Below the pieces are notes generated by a model, which saw only the letters and a list, made by a program, of their open reading frames with translations, did not search any database and was not told where the DNA came from. Shown piece after piece: positions 12,931 through 44,798 of a stretch of 51,788 nt of DNA. Numbering within the stretch: the stretch's first letter is position 1; each line of letters begins with the position of its first letter. Position numbers and translations under genes: made by a program. The DNA is from Microbacterium resistens NBRC 103078 (GTDB lineage Bacteria > Actinomycetota > Actinomycetes > Actinomycetales > Microbacteriaceae): contig NZ_BCRA01000034.1 of assembly GCF_001552355.1 (NCBI RefSeq), forward strand, positions 1 to 51,788. Direction: 5' to 3'.

Positions 12931-13083
12931 GGGTGCCGCTGGTGGGCCCTCTCATGGACGCTTCGCGCCTAGACTGTTCTCGATGTCACGCGCACGAGCG
13001 CGCGCATCGCAACACCCCCGATTCTACAGGTTCCCTCCGACATGCGGACCGTTTCCGTCCCGCCGGCGGGATCCGGAGGACCC

Positions 13084-14235
13084 ATGCCCGAGAGCACCGT
13101 TTCGCCTGCCGCCCCGCACCGCCTCCGCGAGGCTCCTCCCCGTCCCGGCGGCGGCGCGGAGGCCGCACCGTTCCCGGCCAGGCCCCTGCGCGTGTTCGCA
13201 TGGCTCTCGTTCCTCGCGGAGGTCATCATCATCGGGACCGGCGGCGCCGTGCGGCTCAGCGGTTCCGGCCTCGGCTGCTCGGAGTGGCCGATGTGCACCC
13301 CGGACTCGCTCGTGCCGACGCCCGAGCAGGGCTATCACGGGATCATCGAGTTCGGGAACCGAACCATGACGGGCGTCGTGGGCCTGCTGGCGCTCGCCGT
13401 CCTGCTGCTGCTCCTGCACGCGGTCGGTGGCCGCCGCGCGGTGCGCTCCACCCTCTGGTTCGCCGGCGGCGGCATCGTCGCCGCACTGATCGCCTACGGG
13501 ATCGGCACCGCGGCGGGCCTTCCCGGTTTCATGTTCCTCAACGCGACCCTGCTCCTCGCCGTCGTGGTCGCGGCAGTCTTCTCGCTCCGCGCGAACGGCA
13601 CCCGACGCGACCTCACCGCCCTCGCGTGGCTCACGGTGATCGGCATCATCGCCCAGGCCTTCGTCGGAGGCATCACGGTCGTCACGGGACTCAATCCCTT
13701 CATCGTCGGCTTCCACTACGCCTCCTCCCTCGTCCTCGTCTGCATCACCGCCGCGTTCCTCGTCCGGATGCGCGAACCGGCCGGGCCGCGAGAGCGGGTC
13801 GTCCCGTCCTGGTTCGCCGCGCTCACCCACGTCACGGGGCTCGTGCTCGCCGTGACGATCGTCGTGGGAGTCCTCACCACCGGATCCGGACCCCACTCCG
13901 GCGATGCGGACATCGTCCGGCGCGGGTTCGACGCGTCCGTGATGGCGCACGTGCACTCCTGGCCCGGGTACGTGCTCGCGGCGCTCGTGCTGCTCCTGGC
14001 GGTGATCGCCGGGGTCCGCCGGCTCCGGCCCCGCGCCTGGCTCCTGGCCCTGATCGTCGCGATCGGCGTCCAGGTCGCCGTCGGCGTGATCCAGGCGCGG
14101 ACGGGGCTGCCCGAGGTGCTCGTCGGGACCCACATGGTGCTCGCCGCGCTGTCCGCCGCCGCCTACACCGTCGTCGTCCTGCGCCTGAAGCGCCCCGTCG
14201 CTTCCACCGCCCCGGACGCCCCTGCCGCCCCCTGA
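13084..14235 (+). CDS. ctaA: heme A synthase CtaA (COX15 family)
   Basis: This 383-residue membrane protein has about eight transmembrane segments in two repeats. Heme-ligand histidines sit in GYHGIIEFGNR and GFHYASSLVL of the first half, and in AHVHSWPGYVL and VGTHMVLAAL of the second. The extracytoplasmic cysteine pair is Cys 65 and Cys 71 in GLGCSEWPMC, as in the Cys-containing bacterial class. CtaA oxidises the heme O methyl group to heme A for cytochrome oxidase. Start ATG 13084 is chosen because GGAGGA lies just before it, though the spacing is short; the in-frame ATG 13042 has no such site. The N-terminal 30 residues are Pro/Ala-rich and cytoplasmic. Confidence 0.92.
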   Translation: MPESTVSPAAPHRLREAPPRPGGGAEAAPFPARPLRVFAWLSFLAEVIIIGTGGAVRLSGSGLGCSEWPMCTPDSLVPTPEQGYHGIIEFGNRTMTGVVGLLALAVLLLLLHAVGGRRAVRSTLWFAGGGIVAALIAYGIGTAAGLPGFMFLNATLLLAVVVAAVFSLRANGTRRDLTALAWLTVIGIIAQAFVGGITVVTGLNPFIVGFHYASSLVLVCITAAFLVRMREPAGPRERVVPSWFAALTHVTGLVLAVTIVVGVLTTGSGPHSGDADIVRRGFDASVMAHVHSWPGYVLAALVLLLAVIAGVRRLRPRAWLLALIVAIGVQVAVGVIQARTGLPEVLVGTHMVLAALSAAAYTVVVLRLKRPVASTAPDAPAAP

Positions 14236-14255: not shown

Positions 14256-14333
14256 CGAAACCCCCTCTCCCCGTCGAGACCCCCTCGGGCACACGTATCC
14301 CAGAGGGGGTTTCGACGGGGAGAGGGGGTTTCG
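14256..14333. repeat. 31-bp arm inverted repeat between convergent genes
   Basis: Arms at 14256-14286 and 14303-14333 are inverted copies with one mismatch around a 16-nt spacer. Each arm itself holds a direct repeat of the unit CGAAACCCCCTC (one copy reads CGAGACCCCCTC). It sits between convergent ctaA and the ABC permease, so it would make a very stable bidirectional terminator hairpin. It is much longer than the ordinary terminators in this window, which suggests a dispersed repeat element. Confidence 0.75.
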
Positions 14334-14365: not shown

Positions 14366-15709
14366 TCACTCAGCGGCGAGCACCCGCGACACCGGCATGC
14401 GCAGCGCGGCGGCCGTCGGGACGAGCGTCGCGAGCGTGATCAGCCCGGCGCCGACCGCGCCGACCAGCAGGATCGGTCCCCACGCCACGACCGGGGCCGA
14501 CAACCCCAGGCCCGCAGCCAGGAACCCGCTGCCGATCACCGTCGCCGCCGCGCCGAGGAGAACCGCCGTCGCCGCGTGGATCGTCGCCTCCCCCCACGCC
14601 GCCCGCAGAATGACGCCGCGGTCGGCGCCGGCCGCCTGCAACAGCGCGACCTGGCGCTCGCGGGCCCCGGAGGCCATGAACACCGCGACCGCCGCCCCCG
14701 TCGTCCCCACCAGCAGCGGGCCGCCCAGCATCACGGCGACCGCCTCGGTCTGGATCGTCCAGTCGCCCTGCTGCCCCGTCCACGTCGGCGCCGCCGCCCC
14801 GAGCGTCGCCGCTCCGCTGTAGAGCCCGCCGACCAGGGCGATCGCGACCATCAGCGGTGCGATCACCGCGGTGCTCTGGCTCACGCGGGAGCGGGCATCG
14901 TGCCGGGCGAGGAACCACGCCCCCGACATCCGGGCCGGCACCAGCGCCGACCAGATCCGCTGGGCCGCGGGATACAGCACGGGCCCCCACGCCGCCATCA
15001 GCGCGACGACGGCAGGCGTCAGGAACATCCCTCGGTTCACGATCGATGAGAAGTCCCCGTCGCCGAGCCGCCAGGCAAGGGCGGTCACCCCGCCGAGGGT
15101 CGCGACGACCAGCACTCCACGCAGGACGCCCATGCGGATCCGGGGCGGTTCGGGTTCGCGCAGCGCCTCGACCGGCGGGACACGGCTCGCCCGGCGCGCC
15201 GCGCCGTGCCCTCCGGTCATGCAGAGGACGCCGACGCCGACCCCGACGCAGAGGAACGAGACCGGCCCCAGGCGCAGCGGGGTCGACAGCACCTCGTCGC
15301 CCCAGGTCTGGAAGAAGTACGCGAACAGCGGCCGCATGACCGTCGTCGTGAGCGCGCAGCCGAGAAGACCGCCGCCGATCCCGACGAGGCCGAGCTGGGC
15401 CCGCACCACGACGCCGACGCGCGAGGGTGACACCCCGACGACCTGCCAGAGGGCGTAGCCGCGCTGCTGGAGGGCCACGGTCAGGTTCGCCGCGCCCGCG
15501 ATCACGACGACGGCGCTGATCCCGGTGAAGACCAGAACCATGCTGCTCGCGCCCTCCAGGGTCTGCCTGACCGCGCCGCCCTGGACCAGCCCGGTCTCCA
15601 CCAGCATCGCGGCGAAGCCGGCCACGAACCCCACCACGACGGCCAGGAGCAACAGCCCGCTCCAGATCCGTGCCTGACGGACGAGGTCCGCCGCCATGAG
15701 CCGGATCAT
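14366..15709 (-). CDS. FtsX/MacB-type ABC transporter permease
   Basis: This 447-residue membrane protein has the FtsX-like arrangement twice: a helix at the N-terminus (IWSGLLLLAVVVGFVAGFAAMLV), a group at about 60-180 including LQQRGYALWQVVGVSPSRVGVVVRAQL, then a second group at the C-terminus with ARERQVALLQAAGADRGVILRAAWGEA. The 'R-x-R-Q-x-A-L-L-Q-A-x-G' block is the permease signature contacting the ATPase. It partners with the ATPase encoded immediately upstream (4-nt ATGA overlap). The family exports antimicrobial peptides, lipids or signals; the substrate is unknown. The divergent HK-RR pair likely controls it. Confidence 0.85.
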   Translation of the reverse strand: MIRLMAADLVRQARIWSGLLLLAVVVGFVAGFAAMLVETGLVQGGAVRQTLEGASSMVLVFTGISAVVVIAGAANLTVALQQRGYALWQVVGVSPSRVGVVVRAQLGLVGIGGGLLGCALTTTVMRPLFAYFFQTWGDEVLSTPLRLGPVSFLCVGVGVGVLCMTGGHGAARRASRVPPVEALREPEPPRIRMGVLRGVLVVATLGGVTALAWRLGDGDFSSIVNRGMFLTPAVVALMAAWGPVLYPAAQRIWSALVPARMSGAWFLARHDARSRVSQSTAVIAPLMVAIALVGGLYSGAATLGAAAPTWTGQQGDWTIQTEAVAVMLGGPLLVGTTGAAVAVFMASGARERQVALLQAAGADRGVILRAAWGEATIHAATAVLLGAAATVIGSGFLAAGLGLSAPVVAWGPILLVGAVGAGLITLATLVPTAAALRMPVSRVLAAE

Positions 15710-39784: not shown

Positions 39785-40510
39785 ATGAAGACGGTGGGCG
39801 TGCTGGGCGGGATGAGCTGGGAGTCGTCAGCGGAGTGGTACCGCCTGGCGAACGAACTCGTCCGGCGGGAGCTCGGCGGACATCACTCGGCGCGGATCGT
39901 CCTGGACTCCGTCGATTTCGCCGAGGTCGAGGCCCTCCAGTCCCGGGGTGACTGGGAGGCTGCCGGGGATCTGCTCGCGGAGCGGGCCCGCCGACTCGAA
40001 GCCGCCGGGGCCGACCTCCTCGTGCTCTGCACGAATACGATGCACCTCGTCGCCGACCGGATCGAGGAGGCGGTCGCGATTCCGTTCCTGCACATCGCGG
40101 ACGCCGCCGCGGCTGCGGTGGCCGCGGCCGGGCTCCGCACGGTGGGCCTGCTCGGCACAGCATTCACGATGGAGCAGTCCTTCTATCGCGATCGCCTCGC
40201 CCGGCACGGCATCGCCGCCATCGTGCCGAGCGCCGGCGAACGCGCCGTCGTCCACGACGTGATCTACGCCGAACTGGTGCACGGTGTGGTGCGCGAGGAG
40301 TCCCGACGGCGGTTCCAGGTCGTGATCGATCGCCTGGTCCGGGAGGGGGCGGAGGGGATCCTCCTGGGATGCACCGAGATCGAGCTCCTCATCCGGGCCG
40401 AGGACGCCCCCGTCCCGGTCTTCCCGACGACGGCCATCCATGTGGAGGCGGCGATGTCGCTCGCCCTGGACGGTCGTGAAAGGGACGCGGTCAGCAGCCC
40501 AGGCGCGTGA
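39785..40510 (+). CDS. aspartate/glutamate racemase family protein
   Basis: The 241-residue protein has both catalytic-cysteine motifs of the Asp/Glu racemase family, LLVLCTNTMHLVAD and GILLGCTEIELLI, with VGVLGGMSWESSAEWYRLAN at the N-terminus. The GGMSWESS start and HHSARIVLDSVDF block are typical of the YgeA-type group. These act on aspartate, glutamate or other amino acids in a PLP-independent way. The start is fixed at ATG 39785 by the -10 box 7 nt upstream; the open frame upstream is a shadow. The 3' end overlaps the convergent I36 gene by 20 nt. Confidence 0.86.
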   Translation: MKTVGVLGGMSWESSAEWYRLANELVRRELGGHHSARIVLDSVDFAEVEALQSRGDWEAAGDLLAERARRLEAAGADLLVLCTNTMHLVADRIEEAVAIPFLHIADAAAAAVAAAGLRTVGLLGTAFTMEQSFYRDRLARHGIAAIVPSAGERAVVHDVIYAELVHGVVREESRRRFQVVIDRLVREGAEGILLGCTEIELLIRAEDAPVPVFPTTAIHVEAAMSLALDGRERDAVSSPGA

Positions 40511-40973
40511 TCGTCGCGGAGGTGTTGGTCCAGGCGCCGGCTCCGACGGAGGCGACCGCCGACGAGCCGTTGTAGGCGACGACCACACCGGAGGAGCGGG
40601 CGTTCGCGATGCTGCGGACGGGGCTCCCCAGCGGAGCGACGGAGTTGGCCCCCGAACAGCTGGTGAAGGAGATCCGGGCGCCGGAGAGCGAGGAGCCGCT
40701 GAAGGCGCAGAACGTCCCGTCGGCGCACGAGCCCACTCCCCGCGCGAACGCCGAGTCCGCCGTCCCCGGGAGAAGCGTCAGCACGACCGCGCCATCGTCC
40801 CACGTGATCTCCCCGGGACCGGTCTGCTCGCCGCCCGGATAGGCGGCCAAGACCTGATCCACTCGTTCCTGCAGGTCGTCCGAGGACGCTTGTGCCGCCA
40901 TGGGGGCGAACAGTCCGCCGACGACGAGCAGCGCAGCCGCCGCGACGGTGAGCAGAGACCGCAACCGATGCAT
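40491..40973 (-). CDS. secreted peptidase inhibitor family I36-like protein
   Basis: This 160-residue protein has a cleavable signal peptide (about residues 1-30, ending AAQASS). The C-terminal half has the I36/SMPI pattern: CADGTFCAFSGSSLSGARISF, NARSSGVVVAYNGSSA and a terminal Cys. The fold is the beta-gamma-crystallin-like one of Streptomyces metalloprotease inhibitor. The cysteines (CADGTFC, CSGAN, terminal LGC) probably form disulfides outside the cell. Target protease unknown. It has a GGAAGG site before ATG 40973. It lies downstream of the ECF sigma and its partner, with a 36-nt gap, so it may belong to that regulon. Confidence 0.75.
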   Translation of the reverse strand: MHRLRSLLTVAAAALLVVGGLFAPMAAQASSDDLQERVDQVLAAYPGGEQTGPGEITWDDGAVVLTLLPGTADSAFARGVGSCADGTFCAFSGSSLSGARISFTSCSGANSVAPLGSPVRSIANARSSGVVVAYNGSSAVASVGAGAWTNTSATITRLGC

Positions 40974-41009: not shown

Positions 41010-41996
41010 TCATCTCCAGGCCACGTATTCGATCACCGCCGGGGAGGGGATGTCCGTGCGCGAGGAGCCGATGTAGGTCGCCTCGTATGCGAGAACACCC
41101 TGAGCGGCGCTGAGCACCAGGGTATCCCGATACTCCCCCGGGGCACGAGAGTCCGTGCTGACGGAGACGCCTCGGCGTCCGAGACGGTCCGTCACGCTCC
41201 CGTCGACCGCGACATCCGGGAGCGTGGCGAGGAACTCGACGAGCGCCGCCTGCTGTTCGGCGTCGAGGGTGCGTTCCGAGAGGAGGAGGCGCACGGCCGA
41301 GAAGTACTCCCCGCTGCTCTCGCCGACGAGCACGCCGCTGGCCCGGAAGAACTCCGCCATCTCCGCCGCGGAGCCCGGAACATCGCCGAAGAAGCCCGCT
41401 CCCTCTCCCGCCGGCCGGGTGTCGGTCCACAGGACGGCGCCGGGCGCGGGCGTGGGATCCGGCACCGCGGTGCCGTCGGCGGCGGTCGGCGTCCCTGCGC
41501 GGACCTCGATCTCGACCGCCCCATCGGCCGACCGGCGGATCAGATGCTCTTCGGGGAAGATCTGGGAGGGAGGCTCGCCCGACTCCGGGTCGAACGAGAG
41601 CGCCCAGGTCTGGAAGCGGACGACGTCGCTCGCTCCGATGCCGTCGGCACGGACCGATTCGCTGATGCTCATCAGGTTCTCCCTTGCGGTTCCGGGGACG
41701 GGCTCCGCCACGAGCAGGGCGGGAGTGGCGGCGACCGCGGCCGGCGGCCGCAGCAGCGATATCCCTCCCAGGACGGCGACGGCGACCAGGATCAGCACAG
41801 AGGCCGCCGCGAACCAGACGGGCCCGCCGACCCGACCACGCGCGGGGACCCGGCCGCGTGCGGCGCCCCGGTGCTCCGTGGGGTCCGCGACGATCCGTCG
41901 CAGGACGCGCTCGGCCGCGACGGACGGCGGAGCGTTGCGGCGGGGCGTCTCGGGGCGTGCCGCGCGAAGACGCCGCGTCAGCTCGTCATCGTCCAT
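41010..41996 (-). CDS. CU044_5270-like membrane protein, partner of the ECF sigma factor
   Basis: This 328-residue protein has a cytoplasmic N-terminus of about 60 residues (MDDDELTRRLRAARPETPRRNAPPS-like), one transmembrane helix (about 60-82) and a large extracytoplasmic domain with ERTLDAEQQAALVEFLATLPDV. This layout and the position right after a sigma factor gene match the CU044_5270 family. It may serve as anti-sigma factor or surface sensor; no zinc-binding anti-sigma motif (HxxxCxxC) is present. The ATG overlaps the sigma gene by 11 nt. Confidence 0.72.
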   Translation of the reverse strand: MDDDELTRRLRAARPETPRRNAPPSVAAERVLRRIVADPTEHRGAARGRVPARGRVGGPVWFAAASVLILVAVAVLGGISLLRPPAAVAATPALLVAEPVPGTARENLMSISESVRADGIGASDVVRFQTWALSFDPESGEPPSQIFPEEHLIRRSADGAVEIEVRAGTPTAADGTAVPDPTPAPGAVLWTDTRPAGEGAGFFGDVPGSAAEMAEFFRASGVLVGESSGEYFSAVRLLLSERTLDAEQQAALVEFLATLPDVAVDGSVTDRLGRRGVSVSTDSRAPGEYRDTLVLSAAQGVLAYEATYIGSSRTDIPSPAVIEYVAWR

Positions 41997-42567
41997 CGTG
42001 CACCCCCTTCCGCTCCTCGACGGGCCCCTCGCCCGCCGTCTCGTCAGTGCCGAGCCGCCGTCGCAGCCGCTCTCGCGCCCGGTGCAGCCGCACCTTCACG
42101 GCGGCGACGGAGCACCCGAGGATCTCCGCCATCTCCTCGCGGCTCAGTTCCTCCCAGTACGCCATCCAGATGACCTCGCGGTCGTCGGAGCGCATCCGGG
42201 CCACCGCCTGGCGCACGGCGATGGCGTCGTCGTCGATGAGGACGGTCGGATGACCGGGAGCCTCCGCCGCCAGTCGCTGATAGCGACGCGACGCCCTCCC
42301 CCGGCGGCGGTACTCGCTCCCGGTCACGTTCCGCAGCGTCGTGTACAGCCACGGCAGAGTGAACACGGTCTCGTGCTCGCTCCGCCGCCGCCACGCGGCC
42401 GTGAACACCTCTGCGGCGGCGTCCTCGGCCGCCCCGAGATCGCCGAGGCGGTTGAAGCCCGCCGTCACGATCACGGCATGGTAGGCCCGGAACAGATCCT
42501 CGAACGCACGCGCGACCGCCGCCGACGCCGGCCGCGGAAGGCGTGAACCCGTGATCTCGAACCCCAC
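41986..42567 (-). CDS. ECF-type sigma-70 family sigma factor
   Basis: This 193-residue protein has sigma region 2 (FEDLFRAYHAVIVTAGFNRLGDLGAAEDAAAEVFTAAWRR) and region 4 (MAYWEELSREEMAEILGCSVAAVKVRLHRARERLRRRL), with no region 1 or 3. GTG 42567 is chosen because the mirrored promoter ends just upstream and no ribosome-binding site is needed if the mRNA is leaderless; GTG 42645 is upstream but lies inside the promoter dyad. The next gene overlaps it by 11 nt and encodes a membrane partner. It probably directs transcription from the TGTAACC-type elements on both sides of the gap, including its own. Confidence 0.85.
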   Translation of the reverse strand: MGFEITGSRLPRPASAAVARAFEDLFRAYHAVIVTAGFNRLGDLGAAEDAAAEVFTAAWRRRSEHETVFTLPWLYTTLRNVTGSEYRRRGRASRRYQRLAAEAPGHPTVLIDDDAIAVRQAVARMRSDDREVIWMAYWEELSREEMAEILGCSVAAVKVRLHRARERLRRRLGTDETAGEGPVEERKGVHDGR

Positions 42568-42571
42568 ACTT

Positions 42572-42649
42572 CTGGTTGTTGCCGGATCGGCCCGGAAGGT
42601 TACATCCGGAATCCGATGTAACCCCACCCTCTCATCCGGCAACAACCAG
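42572..42649. promoter_or_regulatory. mirror-image divergent promoter/operator region
   Basis: Outer arms CTGGTTGTTGCCGGAT (42572-42587) and ATCCGGCAACAACCAG (42634-42649) are perfect inverted copies. Inner arms GGTTACATC (42598-42606) and GATGTAACC (42615-42623) are also perfect. Read outward in each direction the order is GATGTAACC, 12 nt, CCGGCAACAACC. So each of the two divergent genes has an identical two-part promoter-like motif with identical spacing. The TGTAACC part fits an ECF -35 element by its position and GC-poor AAC core; this is inference. Confidence 0.75.
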
Positions 42650-42698
42650 GGTGAGGGCCGTCTCCCCGGCGGCGCCGTGGGTTATCCAGGAGGACAGC

Positions 42699-42881
42699 AT
42701 GCAGGCAGCCGATCGACGCGGGATCATCTGGTGGATCGCCTTCGGAGCGTTCGCCCTCGTCGCCGTCGGCGGGCTGCTCGCGGTGATGATGACGGGGCAG
42801 GGCTGGTTCGCCGCCCTGTCCGTCGTCGGCGCGGCGGGGACGGTGGGCCTGGGAGCGACCATGGCCGTGTCTGCGGTGTGA
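42699..42881 (+). CDS. small membrane protein of unknown function
   Basis: This 60-residue protein begins with MQAADRRG and has two hydrophobic segments, about IIWWIAFGAFALVAVGGLLAVMM (9-31) and WFAALSVVGAAGTVGLGATMAV (37-58). ATG 42699 follows AGGAGGA with good spacing. I do not recognise the family. It is the first gene downstream of the mirrored promoter, opposite an ECF sigma factor gene, and its stop codon shares an A with the start of the next gene. Confidence 0.7.
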   Translation: MQAADRRGIIWWIAFGAFALVAVGGLLAVMMTGQGWFAALSVVGAAGTVGLGATMAVSAV

Positions 42882-43204
42882 TGGCCGCCGTTCACCCCCA
42901 CGACGATGGCGCCGAGGACGGGACGAGCCGTGCCTGGTCGCTCTCCCTCGGAGTCATCGTCGTCGCTCCGGTCCTCCTCATGCTTCTGGCGCTGCCCACG
43001 ATCGGCGCGGGCGCCACGACCCAGAACGTCGCGATCCTCGCCGCGCTCCAGGGAGGCCTGCTCCTGCTCGCGGCGTCCGTCACAGCCCTGCTCGTCGGGC
43101 GCCGCTCGCCCCGAGCGCGAAAGGCGATCCCGCGGATCACCCTCGTCGTCGCCCTCGCCCTGGCGATCGCCTCCGCGATCGCGATGTGGGCCGCGCAGGG
43201 CTGA
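42881..43204 (+). CDS. small three-helix membrane protein of unknown function
   Basis: This 107-residue protein has a short hydrophilic N-terminus (HPHDDGAEDGTSRAW) followed by three hydrophobic segments (about 20-42, 48-68 and 82-104) with a basic loop GRRSPRARKAIPR. No family is recognised. Start ATG 42881 overlaps the preceding stop (TGATG), so the two small proteins are translated together. Both are likely members of the ECF sigma regulon. Confidence 0.7.
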   Translation: MAAVHPHDDGAEDGTSRAWSLSLGVIVVAPVLLMLLALPTIGAGATTQNVAILAALQGGLLLLAASVTALLVGRRSPRARKAIPRITLVVALALAIASAIAMWAAQG

Positions 43205-43216
43205 GACCCATCCGTC

Positions 43217-44122
43217 TTACGGTGTCGTCTCGGCCCGAGACGGCGTTCCGCGACGCGCCGCCCGTGTGGAGGCCCACCAGACCACGCCCGTGACGACCGC
43301 GCAGGCCGCCATCGCCACAAGAAGACGCGGCGACCCCGGGCCGGTCTGATCCGAGGATCCCGGTGCGCCGCCGTCGCCGATCATCCCGACGAGAGCGGCG
43401 ATGTTGTTCACGGTGTGCATCACGACCGCGGCCTCCACGCCGCCGCTGCGCCACGTCATGAGCGATGCGCACGCGCCGAACACCGCGTAGAAGGCCAGGC
43501 GCCAAGGATCCGCGGTGCCGTGGAACGAGGCGAAAAGGATGGTGGTGACGACCATGCTCATCGCGGTTCCGACGAAGGCGGGATGGAACCAGGTCGCGAC
43601 CGACCGGCCGATCAGTCCGCGGAACATGTACTCCTCGGCCGCCGCCTGGAACGGCGCGACAAGGATCCCCAAGAGGAGGGCGAGCAGGGACGAGGGCGCG
43701 ATCGGCGCGAACGCGGGTGCGCCCTCCATCAGCCAGTCCGTGCCGATCACGATGCCGAACGCGGGGACCGTGACCAGCGCCGCCGTCCGCGCGAGCCGTG
43801 CCCGAAAACGCCCGGAGACGGAGTGCAGCCACCGCCCGGGCACGCCGAAGACGAGACGCTGCGTCCCCCAGACGACGGGGAGCATGAGGGCGATCATCAG
43901 CAGGGACAGCGGTGTGCGCGCCCCCGGGAATCCCGCCGATTCCACGGTGGGGATCACGAGAGCGGATCCGGCTCCGGCCAGCGCGAAGTACGCGGCGAGG
44001 ACGACCGCGACGGCGAGCATCCCGCGACGGCCGGCATGGCGGACGCCTCGCAGACCCGCGTAGTAGCCTCGGTCCTCGCGGAGCTCCGTCCTGCGGGCGC
44101 TCCCGGTCTCGTCCGCCCGCAC
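43217..44122 (-). CDS. CPBP-family intramembrane metalloprotease (CAAX protease-like)
   Basis: This 301-residue protein has about eight hydrophobic segments and the CPBP motifs: EEYMFRGLIGR (Glu-Glu-x3-Arg), FASFHGTADP (His) and AVVMHTVNNIAAL (second His and Asn). The family includes bacteriocin-immunity and CAAX prenyl endopeptidases. Start GTG 44122 is preceded by GGAGGAG with 5-nt spacing; the open frame upstream is low-complexity shadow. The N-terminal 40 residues are basic and precede the first helix. Substrate unknown. Confidence 0.85.
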   Translation of the reverse strand: MRADETGSARRTELREDRGYYAGLRGVRHAGRRGMLAVAVVLAAYFALAGAGSALVIPTVESAGFPGARTPLSLLMIALMLPVVWGTQRLVFGVPGRWLHSVSGRFRARLARTAALVTVPAFGIVIGTDWLMEGAPAFAPIAPSSLLALLLGILVAPFQAAAEEYMFRGLIGRSVATWFHPAFVGTAMSMVVTTILFASFHGTADPWRLAFYAVFGACASLMTWRSGGVEAAVVMHTVNNIAALVGMIGDGGAPGSSDQTGPGSPRLLVAMAACAVVTGVVWWASTRAARRGTPSRAETTP

Positions 44123-44166
44123 CGCGCTCCTCCGTTCGCCGGAACCAGGATACGGCGCCCCCGGGC

Positions 44167-44244
44167 TCAGCGCGCGGGGACCAGACGACCTCCCGCGGCG
44201 GCAAGCTCGCGCGGGACGGGATCCTCGGGGCTCTTGTCGATCAC
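44167..44244 (-). CDS. possible 25-residue open reading frame coupled to the GNAT gene
   Basis: GTG 44244 overlaps the stop of the acetyltransferase gene (GTGA), and the frame runs 25 residues (IDKSPEDPVPRELAAAGGRL in its middle). The 4-nt overlap is the layout of coupled genes in this window, but nothing else supports expression. It may be chance. Confidence 0.25.
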   Translation of the reverse strand: MIDKSPEDPVPRELAAAGGRLVPAR

Positions 44245-44798
44245 GCCGTCCGGGCGCCGGAGCCGTCGGTCCGGCGCGCGAACCACTCCGCGCGGAGAAT
44301 CCCCATGCGCACGATGTCCGTGTACGCGCCGCGGACCCACGCGTGCTCACGCTGGCGACCTTCCACGACGAACCCCGACTTCTCGTAGGCGCGGATCGCC
44401 GGCGCGTTCGACCCGATCACCTCCAGGTGCACCCGGTGCAGGTTGCAGCGCACGAACGCGAACTCGAGGATCTGCGCGATGGCCTCCGTGCCGATCCCGC
44501 GCCCTCGTGCCGACGGCGTGAGCGCGATCCCCACCTCCGCATGCCCGGAGAGCCCGTCGAAGTCGAAGAGCCCGATCGTCCCGACGGCCTGGCCCGCCTC
44601 GTCGATCACGAAGCTGACGTTGCCGCCGGGCTCGGCCTCGCGCTCGGCGAGACGCGACCGCCAGGCCTCGCGCGTCACGGTCACGGGCCGGCCCGGGTTG
44701 CGCTCCTCCCAGGTGTCCAGATCCGACGCGATCTCGTAGAGCGCGTCGAGGTCCTCGTCGGTGCGGGCACGAAGACGAACGACGGGGGCAGGGGTCAT
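44241..44798 (-). CDS. GNAT-family N-acetyltransferase (RimJ/RimL-like)
   Basis: This 185-residue protein has the GNAT core: an N-terminal VVRLRARTDEDLDALYEI, the acetyl-CoA loop LTPSARGRGIGTEAIAQILEFAF (R/Q-x-x-G-x-G/A), LHRVHLEVIGSNAPAIRAYEKSGFVVEGRQREHAW. This matches RimJ/RimL-type acetyltransferases that modify protein N-termini, or related small-molecule enzymes. The substrate is not predictable. ATG 44798 lies 7 nt after a TACGGT box, so the mRNA is likely leaderless. Confidence 0.85.
   Translation of the reverse strand: MTPAPVVRLRARTDEDLDALYEIASDLDTWEERNPGRPVTVTREAWRSRLAEREAEPGGNVSFVIDEAGQAVGTIGLFDFDGLSGHAEVGIALTPSARGRGIGTEAIAQILEFAFVRCNLHRVHLEVIGSNAPAIRAYEKSGFVVEGRQREHAWVRGAYTDIVRMGILRAEWFARRTDGSGARTA

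Follow-up and report, generated by a model that had tools for sequence, protein, structure and literature searches.

Back-to-back promoter-like units beside an ECF sigma factor gene of Microbacterium resistens, and covariation of a sigma residue with a -10 base

Genes and features of the locus

The locus is found in a 51,788-nucleotide stretch of Microbacterium resistens NBRC 103078 (contig NZ_BCRA01000034.1, positions 1 to 51,788), hereafter called the window. A mirror-image region separates the gene of an extracytoplasmic function (ECF) sigma factor and its neighbour, on the minus strand, from two small genes on the plus strand. The features are as follows.

41010-41996, minus strand: protein resembling the CU044_5270 family, in which one hydrophobic segment is visible by eye; its gene overlaps the sigma gene by 11 nt
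41986-42567, minus strand: ECF sigma factor of 193 residues, with Pfam Sigma70_r2 and r4_2 and TIGR02937 above cut-off; GTG start 9 nt after the -10 element, predicted leaderless
42316-42318, minus strand: codon of Ser84, 11 residues after Trp73, which covaries with the second -10 base
42572-42649, no strand: mirror-image region, with 16-bp outer arms, 9-bp inner arms and an 8-bp centre
42577-42582, minus strand: predicted -10 element GCAACA of the sigma-operon promoter, 16 nt from GTAAC
42599-42603, minus strand: predicted -35 element GTAAC of the sigma-operon promoter, also present upstream of sigma orthologues
42618-42622, plus strand: predicted -35 element GTAAC of the divergent promoter
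42639-42644, plus strand: predicted -10 element GCAACA of the divergent promoter, 16 nt from GTAAC
42686-42698, plus strand: ribosome-binding-like sequence CCAGGAGGACAGC, before the ATG at 42699
42699-42881, plus strand: 60-residue protein with hydrophobic stretches (predicted membrane protein), of no known family
42881-43204, plus strand: 107-residue protein with three hydrophobic stretches (predicted membrane protein), whose start overlaps the stop of the 60-residue gene; no family above cut-off

ECF (group 4) sigma factors are proteins of about 200 residues defined by having no domains other than sigma2 and sigma4; a promoter of their own with conserved -35 and -10 elements at a fixed spacing is a typical but not a defining trait. 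The 193-residue window protein matches PF04542, PF08281 and TIGR02937 above cut-off, and GTAAC-N16-G(A/C)AA(C/T)A is found ahead of the sigma gene in the GTAAC class (17 distinct genomes), locus L013 being without it. The best NCBIfam match of the protein is the actinobacterial TIGR02983 SigE family; at 78.5 bits it remains below the curated membership score of 141.55. As proposed in a preliminary description of this DNA, the GTG at 42565-42567 is the in-frame start codon nearest the repeat.

The overlapping downstream gene codes for a protein that scores 70.7 bits against the CU044_5270 family (NF038083), below the cut-off of 100 and hence outside the family. A similar protein is encoded beside the sigma gene in 10 of the 10 relatives scanned, below cut-off in all of them and weakly so in L038. 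Gene overlap and conserved neighbourhood indicate that it is likely to be the anti-sigma factor. Behind the sigma operon, positions 40491-40973 (minus strand) encode a 160-residue protein with a signal-like start and a weak Inhibitor_I36 match below cut-off. In L003 (Microbacterium ureisolvens, genome G247) and L004, a secreted-protein gene at a similar place has its own GTAAC-N16-GAAACA site; none was found before 40491-40973.

On the divergent side, the ATG is located 54 nt after the right-hand -10 element and is preceded by AGGAGGA. A GTG in frame with it, 6 nt after that element, is a possible start but would precede the putative transcription start. The 60- and 107-residue proteins had one match each among 5.8 billion proteins (92% and 98% identical, respectively), in a search that needs shared five-residue words, so that remote relatives could escape it, and in which the matched clusters, like the window's own proteins, are listed without a source. 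The 107-residue protein was detected in no other of 247 genomes of the genus at an E value of 1e-5. A DNA search with 42400-43210 against 366 genomes of the genus gave matches in 26 of them, which outside the own genome did not exceed 124 bp and never covered the mirror region. Because homologues of the divergent genes were found only as own or near-identical proteins, conservation provides no direct test of the divergent half. The small membrane operon converges with a gene for a CPBP/Rce1-like membrane protease (43217-44350, minus strand).

Geometry of the mirror-image region

The outer arms (42572-42587 and 42634-42649, 16 bp) and the inner arms (42598-42606 and 42615-42623, 9 bp) are perfect reverse complements, with coordinates identical to those first reported. 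They surround the 8-bp centre CGGAATCC, and complementarity amounts to 77% when the arms are extended to 35 bp. The layout described earlier as facing both divergent genes, here searched as GATGTAACC-N10-14-CCGGCAACAACC, occurs exactly twice in the 3.98-Mb genome, in the two mirror halves.

None of 60 first-order Markov resamples of the window contained a perfect inverted repeat with arms of at least 16 bp and a gap of at most 200 bp, but the real window harbours four further places with such arms (at about 8687, 14256, 32966 and 50247), showing that long inverted repeats per se are not uncommon in real sequence. What sets the 42572-42649 repeat apart is its motif content rather than the long arms as such. 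One of the other perfect repeats, at 14256-14333 (22-bp arms, 34-bp gap), is placed between the convergent open reading frames 13042-14235 (plus) and 14366-15709 (minus) and is likely to be a two-way terminator.

Promoter-like units in the genome

Each strand of the mirror region carries one GTAAC-N16-GCAACA unit, and these units are likely promoters of the adjacent ECF sigma factor. The broader pattern GTAAC-N16-GVAACA yielded four matches in the genome, namely the two mirror halves, one site on contig C16 and one on contig C29; the reversed-pattern control yielded none. The C16 site (L052) precedes a gene whose product, of at least 484 residues, has a signal-like start and a weak NucA/NucB match below cut-off, and the C29 site has neither the preceding G nor a clear gene following it. 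With the preceding G required (GTAAC-N15-GGMAACA), three sites were found versus 0.19 expected from base composition, and again none with the reversed control. Other spacings from 11 to 21 gave two extra matches, both at one other spacing. The genome contains no A-type -10 site at the window's spacing, and a consensus scan of 42300-43300 detected no sigma70-type promoter.

The spacers of the two halves are alike at 7 of 15 positions, five of which adjoin an element, and the -35 and -10 elements and their spacing are exact. Outside the core, the halves agree with each other at 18 of 35 positions and with the unlinked third site at 18 and 16. As this unlinked site is about as alike, there is no case for a recent inverted duplication as the origin of the halves.

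Conservation and spacing in relatives

We compared loci obtained from a genome-contig search (32 loci), from 247 genomes of the genus (17 places) and from 398 genomes of the family. When spacers of 12 to 18 were allowed, GTAAC-N-GNAACA was found before the sigma gene in 17 of 52 loci, representing 15 distinct genomes (L036 and L037 repeat L005 and L003). All have N16, and the spacing in relatives, which the preliminary description had proposed as a check, is thus conserved. Its longer motif fared less well: the GTAAC-N16-G(A/C)AACA core is retained, but the flanking GAT before and ACCAG after it are mostly variable. The site precedes the sigma gene in 12 of the 13 relatives whose sigma factor is at least 52% identical, the one without it being L013 (53%). 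Loosening the -10 element to GNA(A/C)(C/T)A at N16 gave 19 of 72 loci, or 17 distinct genomes including the window's. Three more of these loci have GTCAC in place of GTAAC, and the remainder, mostly below 45% identity, have neither. In twenty further loci of the family, no sigma gene was itself preceded by a new GTAAC-type site; L122, which belongs to this set, has its site only on the divergent side. Among nine Streptomyces loci, five show a similar GTAAC with CCGGACACA, one base closer. A sister class, GTCAC-N16-GCAACA with ACTTC after the -35 element, was observed before paralogous sigma genes in L044, L049 and L138.

We also counted GTAAC-N12-18-GGMAACA over whole genomes. In 16 genomes, 14 of them distinct (G249 and G247 repeat G055 and G224), there are 32 sites at N15, the window's spacing, versus 10 over the six other spacings and 8 for the reversed pattern (hand count); these genomes were picked for their sigma gene, and G000, G055, G224, G148 and G192 also after a site had been seen. 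Twenty of the 32 sites are at the sigma locus, and elsewhere the count is 12 versus 9. Across the genus, 23 of 247 genomes have a site at the window's spacing (27 sites, versus 34 for the reversed control, by hand count), which is background level; 8 of the 27 belong to the four genomes that gave the best sigma matches.

An exact GTAAC-N16-GMAACA site is present in 15 distinct loci, 10 of which have an in-frame start codon 8-9 nt after the -10 element, so that this codon would stand at the very 5' end of the sigma mRNA. Locus L007 has another start codon at 2 nt. The other five (L006, L105, L106, L038 and L042) have their first usable start codon 22-49 nt off and, at this distance, do not qualify as leaderless.

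In 3 of 72 loci, those of the window, L006 and L122, a site within 500 bp of the sigma gene points away from it. In L006 (Agromyces binzhouensis) the divergent GTAAC elements start about 62 bp apart versus 15 in the window, and a lipoprotein-like gene lies behind; in L122 the divergent site precedes a secreted-protein gene, and no self-site was found. Mirror symmetry is therefore not required, since neither locus has the window's geometry. Extra sites in L003, L004, L006, L085, L105 and L122 lie before genes whose products, judged by eye, are small membrane proteins, lipoproteins or secreted proteins, which would fit an envelope-related regulon. No clear gene follows the second sites of L010 and L011 or the extra sites of L084, L086 and L087. 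The second site of L010 and L011, at 4486, has surroundings resembling those of their own sigma promoter (22 and 23 of 35 non-core positions, respectively), with a GTG 8 nt after it that opens a very short frame and no gene found behind. In the Agromyces genomes of L008, L009 and L012, the motif also occurs away from the sigma locus (L085, L096 and L098), before open frames for similar small hydrophobic proteins of ~90 residues; that of L085, the only one of the three scanned, belongs to no Pfam family.

Covariation of a sigma residue with the -10 element

Within the GTAAC class, 14 distinct genomes combine an A at the second -10 base with Asn at the eleventh residue past the conserved region 2 Trp, and three combine a C with Ser (the window) or Thr (L038 and L039) there. 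Both mirror halves and the unlinked third site carry C. In the phylogenetic tree, the window falls inside a 14-row clade (support 100/99), beside L003-L005 (84/93), and L038 and L039 are outside it (99/98). If Asn with A is taken as the older state, which is our assumption, this distribution points to two separate joint changes of residue and base. Among the GTCAC-type paralogues, L049 breaks the residue rule by pairing Asn with C; the residue paired with C in L044 and L138 is Asp. Locus L013 has Val at this position and no site. The 20 further family loci, checked for the same rule, added no self-promoter to the GTAAC class and one concordant divergent site, that of L122 (Asn with A).

A structural counterpart is available in Mycobacterium tuberculosis sigmaH, in whose crystal structure Asn92, 11 residues after Trp81, is hydrogen-bonded to the template-strand base of the -11 G:C pair, which heads the -10 element (GTT) and immediately precedes the two flipped bases, according to the account in PMC6411747. 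By position, and assuming the same Trp from its conservation, Ser84 would correspond to Asn92. The spacing (GTAA-N18-MAA in the window class versus GGAA-N18-20-GTT as given in PMC11588781) similarly suggests that the variable A/C base pair is the sigmaH -11 pair. SigmaH differs in that it reads GTT with GGAA at -35 (PMC6411747, same account), whereas the window class varies A or C with Asn or Ser/Thr. A match of the covarying residue to Asn80 of Escherichia coli sigmaE proved wrong; the position after the conserved Trp points to sigmaH Asn92 (PMC6411747, same account).

Proposed mechanism and alternative explanations

The mirror repeat very probably consists of two back-to-back promoter-like copies read by the adjacent ECF sigma factor, which would switch on its own operon and the divergent two-gene membrane operon together. 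That one sigma factor fires both ways was the main proposal of the preliminary description, and the two copies, their fixed spacing, the sites of orthologues and the covariation argue well for it at the sequence level. The sigma factor would be released by its CU044_5270-family-like membrane partner; the holoenzyme would then bind either of the two -35 elements, which face away from each other 14 bp apart, and open the -10 element. Leftward transcription would start at about 42567, giving a leaderless sigma mRNA, and rightward transcription at about 42653-42654, giving a leader of about 45 nt, so that only the sigma side would be leaderless. The repeat centre is about 43 bp upstream of both putative starts. 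Given the general footprint sizes of RNA polymerase, the footprints of two bound polymerases would overlap, because 14 bp separate the GTAAC elements and the repeat centre lies near -43 of both promoters. The two enzymes would get in each other's way and would probably bind in turn, with possible competition between the two directions.

Perfect 9-bp inner and 16-bp outer arms might form an operator at which a dimeric regulator represses or activates both operons. We consider this quite improbable, and the earlier suggestion of such a regulator on the inner dyad is not favoured: in relatives, one asymmetric site, always in the same orientation, precedes the sigma gene, with the start codon at a fixed distance in 10 of 15 loci, the divergent GTAAC starts of L006 are spaced about 62 bp rather than 15 bp, and the conserved bases are the -35-like and -10-like ones. 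A role as RNA hairpin or terminator, which a long inverted repeat between genes could bring to mind, is remoter still, as both arms are upstream of the putative starts and neither transcript would contain the repeat; moreover, the flanking genes are divergent, not convergent, and the scan of 42300-43300 found no terminator-like site.

It is also conceivable, although unlikely, that the sigma-side copy alone works and the second one is a remnant left when promoter DNA was duplicated in inverted orientation. The restriction of the divergent genes to this genome and near-identical proteins speaks for a relic, as does the identity between the halves, which runs past the -10 element to ACCAG. Nevertheless, the spacers have diverged around exact elements at an exact spacing, arguing for selection on both copies, and the right-hand copy has the C that matches Ser84, as does the unlinked third site. 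Furthermore, L006 and L122, two other loci of the 72, also have an away-facing site before a lipoprotein-like or secreted-protein gene.

Returning to two working copies, the divergent back-to-back arrangement itself is ordinary and of a known type, and the matched change of sigma factor and promoter is the most interesting part. A broader reading, to which we lean somewhat less than to its contrary, is a natural rewiring of the promoter code: Asn to Ser84 and A to C may have changed together in all three promoters, with Asn to Thr and A to C changing separately in another Microbacterium lineage, and the mirror might be a two-way switch that admits one polymerase at a time and ties self-amplification of the sigma factor to a membrane operon that is young and confined to its lineage. 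The analysis assigns a defined promoter code, predicted starts and a small predicted regulon, all directly testable, to an ECF sigma factor of actinobacteria that was uncharacterised. Asn with A versus Ser or Thr with C offers a natural minimal pair for the study of how ECF sigma factors and promoters change jointly. Subject to the positional mapping, the covarying contact would be one seen in the crystal structure of another ECF sigma factor, as presented in PMC6411747.

Comparison with known systems

Literature searches returned no paper combining 'ECF sigma factor' and CU044_5270, and among publications on ECF classification, Microbacterium ECF motifs, divergent or GTAAC promoters, leaderless autoregulation, the L3 loop and sigma-promoter coevolution, titles and the beginnings of abstracts revealed nothing on this locus. 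Divergent self-regulated ECF loci are known, for example phyR and nepR-ecfG of alphaproteobacteria, where one sigma factor drives its own gene and a divergent target. The sigma group and promoter sequence of those loci differ from the window's, and we know of no exact mirror geometry at loci of that type.

The closest promoter likeness is to SigD of Corynebacterium glutamicum, whose promoters are described with GTAAC(A/G) at -35 and GAT at -10, and whose targets range from envelope enzymes to hypothetical membrane and secreted proteins, with RsdA as anti-sigma factor (PMC6338062 and PMC11588781, in their passages on SigD). The bases GTAAC also stand in the predicted -35 elements of the window; the base after them, A or G for SigD in these passages, is C in the window and G, A or C in its relatives. 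The GAT of the SigD -10 element, as given there, has no match in the window class, which has G(A/C)AA(C/T)A. The partner of SigD is RsdA, whereas the likely partner in the window is CU044_5270-family-like, and the mirror pair of promoter-like units in the window has no equivalent in these accounts of SigD (PMC6338062, PMC11588781).
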